Shown here piece by piece: positions 19,241-19,983 of a stretch of DNA of 30,856 nucleotides. A model generated the notes under the pieces. The model was not told where the DNA came from. It searched no databases and saw nothing but the letters and a program-made list of their open reading frames with translations. This DNA is from a virus. A program made the translations under genes and the position numbers. Numbering within the stretch: the first letter of the stretch is position 1; each line of letters opens with the position of its first letter. Location: positions 1-30,856 of the IMG/VR virus record IMGVR_UViG_3300046010_000778; one strand, 5' to 3'.

Positions 19241-19983
19241 TTAACTACGTTTATTAATTAGTTTTATTTCTATTTCTGTCTTTTCTTTTTCAAATGTTAA
19301 CCACGTTAAACTTTGGTGTATGGGTAACTTGGAAACTTCATCAAATCTTCTAACGTCTCCTTCAGCAAGAGCATAGATACTTGAATACCATCCCCAACGT
19401 TTTCCAAATTGTGCTTGTTCAGAATATTCTGCACTTCCTGATTCCCCTCCAAATAGTTTATCGTACTGCTTAATAAGTCGTTGCCTAAATTGTAAAAAAA
19501 AACCATAGCACCTAAAACTACGTCCAAAGGTGCGTGACGCATTACATCAGCATAAGTAATAGAACCTTTGTATTCTTCTATTTCATATTTGTTGCCTAAC
19601 TTATTTACAATAGGCCTGTATAATACTGCCATTGCATTGTGCATTGTATCCCAATCAGTAATATAAGCATCTAAATCCATATATTCACCTGTAGACATTT
19701 CATCAAGGTTAGGAATAAAACCAAACTCTACTCCACCCATTTTAAAGCGTTGTACAAACTTATTTTCTTTACTGAATAGGTTGTTAATGTTTGCAGTAAT
19801 TTCAGCTACATCTTTGTATCTAATTTGTGCTACATCTTTTAAATCTATACCACAAAATAGCTGCACCATTTTCTGCTGCAAAAATTCTGATTCTTCGTTG
19901 TCTTTTGCAATAGCTAAAAACTTTTGGTACTGCACCAGTTTTATTTCTGATAGTGAAGTTGGTATTTTTAATTCTATCTTCAT
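19241..19983 (-). CDS. Tail assembly chaperone, long form by programmed -1 frameshift (gpGT-like, 247 aa)
   Basis: Translation starts at ATG 19983. At the slippery run (T TTT TTT, 19501-19495) ribosomes can slip back one base after F163 and continue for 84 residues to TAA at 19243-19241. The added part has a strongly protein-like sequence, including KLFGGESGS, FGKRWGWYSSIYALAEGD, VRRFDEVSKLP and TWLTFEKEKTEIEI, as in the C-terminal (T) domains of tail assembly chaperones. The -1 frame has no ATG, GTG or TTG start between its last stop and the slippery site, so it can be reached only by frameshifting. It uses the AT-rich third positions of the genome and fills the gap to the next gene. The long form would recruit tail-tube subunits to the tape measure. 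Confidence 0.82.
19306..19983 (-). CDS. Tail assembly chaperone, short form (gpG-like, 225 aa)
   Basis: Without frameshifting the gene gives 225 aa. The N-terminal part (MKIELKIPTSLSEIKLVQYQKFLAI) begins with beta-strands and a LxxYQ helix, as in tail assembly proteins that coat the tape measure. Residues 164-225 are read in the normal frame over a region that also encodes the -1 extension. They still look like protein (NLGNDLLSSTINYLEGN ... LKETLEDLMKF) although their third positions are unusually G/C-rich, as expected under dual coding. The gene heads the tail cluster, after a terminator, and is followed by tail-completion genes. Confidence 0.85.
   Translation of the reverse strand: MKIELKIPTSLSEIKLVQYQKFLAIAKDNEESEFLQQKMVQLFCGIDLKDVAQIRYKDVAEITANINNLFSKENKFVQRFKMGGVEFGFIPNLDEMSTGEYMDLDAYITDWDTMHNAMAVLYRPIVNKLGNKYEIEEYKGSITYADVMRHAPLDVVLGAMVFFYNLGNDLLSSTINYLEGNQEVQNILNKHNLENVGDGIQVSMLLLKETLEDLMKFPSYPYTKV
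19495..19501 (-). promoter_or_regulatory. Slippery heptamer T TTT TTT for -1 ribosomal frameshift
   Basis: The minus strand reads ATG GTT TTT TTT TAC in the zero frame, a run of nine Ts (19502-19494). The heptamer fits X XXY YYZ, so both tRNAs can re-pair after slipping back one base. No obvious Shine-Dalgarno-like stimulator or stable downstream hairpin was noted. Confidence 0.8.

Follow-up and report, generated by a model that had tools for sequence, protein, structure and literature searches.

Recoding in tail chaperone genes is already known, and a conserved tail-gene frameshift was reportedly described by Xu, Hendrix and Duda in 2004. In the lambda G/GT layout of these genes (PMC5009743), gpG and gpGT have one start and a common N-terminal part, and a -1 slip at a slippery heptamer yields a minor longer product with a second domain. 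The gene analysed here, which also lies in a tail region, is alike in each of these respects, its products being predicted from sequence comparison, but it differs from lambda in that no sequence similarity was found, its slip site lies in a run of at least nine Ts and it is not adjacent to the tape measure gene. In the E/E+E' genes of phage P2, a TTTTTTG slip site is found in the tail operon with no downstream hairpin (PMC3091744), and the T-rich site, the operon and the lack of a hairpin all resemble our locus; however, E (91 aa) and E+E' (142 aa) belong to another protein family, and the P2 site is not a run of nine. Transcriptional slippage at A9 or T9 runs of bacteria (Thermus dnaX, IS elements) likewise involves a run of nine and needs no RNA structure, but the gene studied here is a phage tail-region gene, for which such slippage is a candidate reading. 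The distance from the slip to the zero-frame stop averages 26 nt in SEA-PHAGES phages and 36 nt in the phages of Xu et al. (PMC10885494), whereas about 186 nt are shared, and under selection, in our gene; the preliminary description was right to single out the long overlap. What is new here is dual coding that is long, selected and lineage-wide.

The window, by which we mean the whole stretch of 30,856 nucleotides that was analysed, is an IMG/VR virus record (IMGVR_UViG_3300046010_000778) with 31% G+C. The features discussed below are collected in the table.

Table. Features of the window that bear on the recoded gene (a blank cell means that no entry applies)
Feature	Position	Strand	Description	Basis
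Zero-frame gene	19983-19306	minus	225 aa; residues 1-163 (19983-19495) form the shared N-terminal domain, followed by the zero-frame tail	ORF, phrog_32199, AlphaFold2
Slip site T9	19502-19494	minus	Read GTT TTT TTT TAC; heptamer T TTT TTT at 19501-19495	
-1 frame T-like extension	19495-19241 including stop	minus	84 aa (19495-19244), stop 19243-19241; fusion product 247 aa	Open frame, homology, selection
Dual-coded stretch	19494-19309	minus	186 nt, 62 zero-frame codons; zero-frame stop 19308-19306	
Terminase large subunit	21839-20673	minus	Upstream of the slip gene, same direction	PF17288 and PF04466, above cut-off
Tape measure protein candidate	14571-12730	minus	Possible partner	phrog_24676 (tail length tape measure protein), E 1e-11
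Portal	8951-7221	minus	After the protease and further head genes	

In the zero frame the T run stands in the context ...GGT GCT ATG GTT TTT TTT TAC AAT TTA GGC..., and the -1 frame has 101 open codons from stop to stop, with no ATG, GTG or TTG upstream of the run in the window. The sequence bears out the coordinates given earlier for the gene, its heptamer within nine consecutive Ts and the stop at 19241, and reading of the ORFs agrees with the claim of an 84-residue -1 frame that has no start codon before the slippery site; the roughly 190 shared bases and 62 zero-frame codons reported after the slip hold as well, with 186 nt counted. The zero-frame protein matches phrog_32199 with an E value of 9e-19, and 71 of the 71 members of the family alignment match this phrog too.

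If the zero frame were open only by chance downstream of the slip, random codon choice for the T peptide should leave it open equally far. We kept the T peptide fixed and redrew its codons from the phage's own usage, and 0.4% of such trials kept the zero frame of the window open as far as it is. Among 73 divergent members, a median of 0.8% of trials left the zero frame open as far as observed. The third frame behaved as the trials predict, with 9.3 stops observed and 9.6 expected.

The zero-frame protein, used as a query against IMG/VR, drew 232 relatives, 80 of which were retained. In all 79 close relatives whose sequence extends over the site, the run numbers exactly nine Ts, and the dual-coded overlap aligns across them without gaps. 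Scans with broader alignments, each returning at least 600 places, included six loci from bacterial assemblies of Bacteroidota; the run comprised 9, 10 or 12 Ts in 168 of the 168 first-round loci that reach the site. Overall, the site is present in 396 of 417 loci, representing 184-186 clusters below 90% identity, again with a run of 9, 10 or 12. The count accepted runs of at least seven, so that runs of 7 or 8 could have appeared, and none was found among the approximately 185 clusters. Two further scans, each with the T peptide only (a pattern around F-x-K-W-G-W-Y), were independent of both the run and the zero frame, and they recovered at least nine Ts at the junction in 78 of 79 and 79 of 80 loci; one exception (L325) ends at a contig end and the other (L228) begins within the domain, preceded by a different sequence. 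Except in L228, every locus that reaches the site has an in-register T TTT TTT within a run of 9, 10 or 12.

Both frames downstream of the run are also kept. The zero-frame overlap extends for 50-85 codons in 177 clusters, for 40-48 in five and for fewer than 30 in two (median 57). The -1 extension is homologous in all relatives, its peptide aligning from the first codon after the run, and in 182 of 184 clusters codons 1-30 of the -1 frame contain no ATG, which implies that T needs the slip. Comparison of the relatives shows that the slip site and the two coding frames are kept across the lineage. The carriers are flavobacterial phages of Bacteroidota, and we found no report in the open-access literature of recoded tail chaperones in Flavobacterium phages. 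The cultured Nonlabens phages P12024L and P12024S belong to the same family through their ORFs 40/41, an unannotated homologue that retains T9 and homologous zero and -1 frames. They differ from the window in that the zero-frame tail has 25 codons and T is annotated as a separate 55-aa hypothetical protein. The tail measures just 16-25 codons in P12024L/S and in two further loci (L084 and L085), indicating that a long tail is dispensable in some members. The separately annotated proteins, ORF 41 of P12024L (L082:6528-6695) and ORF 39 of P12024S (L083:3528-3695), correspond to the 3' part of the T frame and start at an internal ATG.

Integrated copies are rare, as judged from a prophage survey that gave one match in 395 genomes of the phylum and three in 397 genomes of the family, the seed genome counted. 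One distant copy from a bacterial assembly (L255) keeps nine Ts and the T frame, has stop codons in the zero frame and is probably a decaying prophage.

To measure constraint in each frame, we used a four-class count (NN, SN, NS and SS) that follows the logic of OLGenie in a script of our own rather than the published program. Over the full overlap in 58 pairs, which like those of the second set are not strictly independent on the tree and in a few cases span different clades, dNN/dSN for the zero frame was 0.42 (0.36-0.50) and dNN/dNS for the -1 frame was 0.37 (0.32-0.43). A set of 59 pairs, with each sequence used once, gave 0.42 (0.35-0.51) and 0.47 (0.38-0.57) in the overlap, compared with 0.17 for the zero frame and 1.24 (1.07-1.48) for the -1 frame in the 50 codons upstream. 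Past the zero-frame stop, as far as the T stop (58 pairs), the zero frame gave 0.89 (0.67-1.29) and the -1 frame 0.14 (0.11-0.18). The -1 frame upstream and the zero frame after its stop thus look neutral by these ratios, and constraint switches where the model predicts; the ratios carry no correction for transition bias, but these flanking controls speak against it as their cause. Within the overlap, the first 25 codons of the -1 frame are weakly constrained (0.80, 0.64-1.01) and the next 25 strongly (0.28, 0.20-0.37). In the window's clade, differences at the zero-frame third position fall from 0.268 per site upstream to 0.078 in the overlap. Three clades analysed separately each agree with selection on two frames. 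As judged from these substitution patterns, the comparison shows purifying selection acting on both frames of the overlap, and the relatives strongly support what the preliminary description put forward, programmed -1 recoding and a genuinely dual-coded region.

The comparative evidence points to a short product and a -1 extended product with a common N-terminus, and we infer that both are made. Their role has to be approached through context and structure. Neither part of the gene matched a named chaperone profile in Pfam, NCBIfam or the sequences of solved structures (PDB), and the -1 extension, which had been thought to look like the T part of gpGT proteins, showed no similarity to named chaperones when searched against tail chaperone profiles. 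Tail chaperones are a very diverse group in which profile matches usually fail. There is a faint match to the tail-protein family phrog_166 in 7 of 71 members (best E 1e-4); a link through phrog_166 to gp26 and gp51 of T4 was considered and is unsupported, as those T4 proteins match phrog_150. Five ORFs (151, 193, 351, 677 and 128 aa) separate the slip gene from the tape measure candidate downstream. By analogy, a tail assembly chaperone pair of the G/GT type is plausible: the layout fits, the gene sits in the tail module between the terminase and the tape measure candidate, and there is the faint phrog_166 match. The earlier assignment to a tail assembly chaperone gene is partly supported, by these three points and not by any match in Pfam, NCBIfam or solved structures.

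An AlphaFold2 model built from 71 sequences has a confident core (pLDDT of about 90 to residue 165) followed by a zero-frame tail that is helical and of low confidence. In this zero-frame model, the slip after residue 163 falls inside a predicted helix (153-180). Modelled alone, the T part is predicted to be a confident all-helical domain (pLDDT 87.7). Comparison with the PDB gave no match better than widespread helical arrangements would give (Z at most 4.8 for G and 2.7 for T). Nine unnamed viral proteins in BFVD, 226-267 aa long, each resemble G as well as T in fold, in some cases weakly; these model-based matches suggest, as a lead, that distant phages may carry a G-T fusion in one frame. 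No such one-frame fusion was seen among IMG/VR loci in T-based or G-based samples, and tblastn with the T part found no match in GenBank phages. A single fold match is named as a tail assembly chaperone (A0A8S5V8Z8), and it is weak (E 0.3). Another faint fold match, gp10 of Flavobacterium phage 6H, lacks a clean -1 junction and was set aside. After gp10, an unannotated stretch of phage 6H (L256:10351-10048, minus strand) has an open -1 frame of about 100 codons, with a stop directly after a T TTT TTC candidate.

Several other readings of the locus have to be weighed. Runs of one base invite errors and the record comes from a metagenome assembly, so that a sequencing or assembly error, or a decayed gene, could leave a single real frame; but the same run recurs in about 185 clusters from many assemblies and in the cultured P12024L/S, and were one frame alone real, the other would lose the selection that both display. 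For practical purposes, an assembly error, a pseudogene and an accidentally open frame are all excluded. That T is instead a separate protein that starts inside the overlap, with no fusion, would agree with the annotation of P12024L ORF 41 from an internal ATG; we consider it very improbable given the scarcity of early ATG codons in the -1 frame and a -1 peptide that is common to the relatives from the first post-run codon onwards. A different function for the two recoded proteins, for example as two isoforms of a protein for packaging or head-tail connection, is a more serious alternative, albeit a rather unlikely one. The gene adjoins the terminase gene in P12024L/S and is the first conserved gene after it in the window, no chaperone profile matches and the tape measure gene is not adjacent; on the other hand, the G/GT-like layout with its -1 slip and helical T part, the tail genes that follow and the faint phrog_166 match all favour a chaperone.

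The same two proteins could also arise if RNA polymerase slipped at T9, so that some mRNAs with ten Us were translated normally into the T frame, which we regard as possible if somewhat unlikely. The run, which occurs in three codon registers, is never shorter than nine, though 7 or 8 Ts would suffice for the ribosomal heptamer. A run that begins a base sooner keeps the length of nine, and a C can follow the run in that case alone (L115, L139, L154 and L298). It is also at nine that many bacteria avoid A/T runs in coding regions and that slippage is exploited (PMC1088944). The third frame closes within about three codons, as would suit a site that yields all frames, and no RNA structure is conserved downstream of the slip (mean z 0.01 in 76 members; control -0.24). 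However, RNA structure is likewise dispensable at P2-type T TTT TTG sites (PMC3091744), the extra Ts may reflect coded residues (hydrophobic before the site and Leu in the -1 frame after it), and the third-frame stop may stem from Phe-Arg in the T frame. For a ribosomal slip, the T TTT TTT heptamer has the right register, and the known tail-gene cases are ribosomal (PMC5009743); by this precedent, we prefer the ribosome as the probable agent.

We think it fairly likely that, through -1 recoding, the gene encodes a tail assembly chaperone pair of the G/GT type, two proteins with a common N-terminal domain. One gene would then give two proteins that share 163 residues: normal reading would end in the zero-frame tail, while a fraction would slip at T9, inside the long predicted helix, into the 84-residue helical T-like domain. 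By analogy with lambda gpG/gpGT, the two forms, made in a set ratio, would act as tail assembly chaperones; the shared part may have the tape measure protein as its binding partner, and the major tail protein may be recruited by the T-like part. A further-reaching idea, which we hold to be doubtful, is that this Bacteroidota phage lineage places two C-terminal domains on the same DNA, that polymerase slippage at runs of at least nine Ts sets their ratio and that the zero-frame tail is an overprinted domain that has a role of its own in tail assembly.

Across a large lineage whose proteins are listed as unknown (phrog_32199 and phrog_38404), about 170-190 nt appear to serve two reading frames, both under selection, and the T domain is overlooked there by standard gene calling. 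The locus offers a natural system in which to study the function of the G-only tail and the evolution of a dual-coded domain, and to ask whether polymerase slippage can set a phage assembly ratio.

The surrounding genes have an unusual order (21839-7221, minus strand), in which tail-like genes lie between the terminase and a block that runs, past the tape measure candidate, from the protease through further head genes to the portal. A second recoding site was considered at an A10 run (12115-12106, minus strand), which sits within the protease gene, and at an A9 run (28439-28431); at both, the other two frames close within a few codons, and neither is a recoding site. The head protease ORF (12692-11793, minus strand) resembles the first half of phrog_24921 and the ORF at 11525-10953 (minus strand) its second half, and from this likeness the two may be one gene elsewhere. 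The N-terminal part of the protease resembles P12024L, and the protease's residues 201-296 are 55-60% identical to proteins of haloarchaeal tailed viruses.
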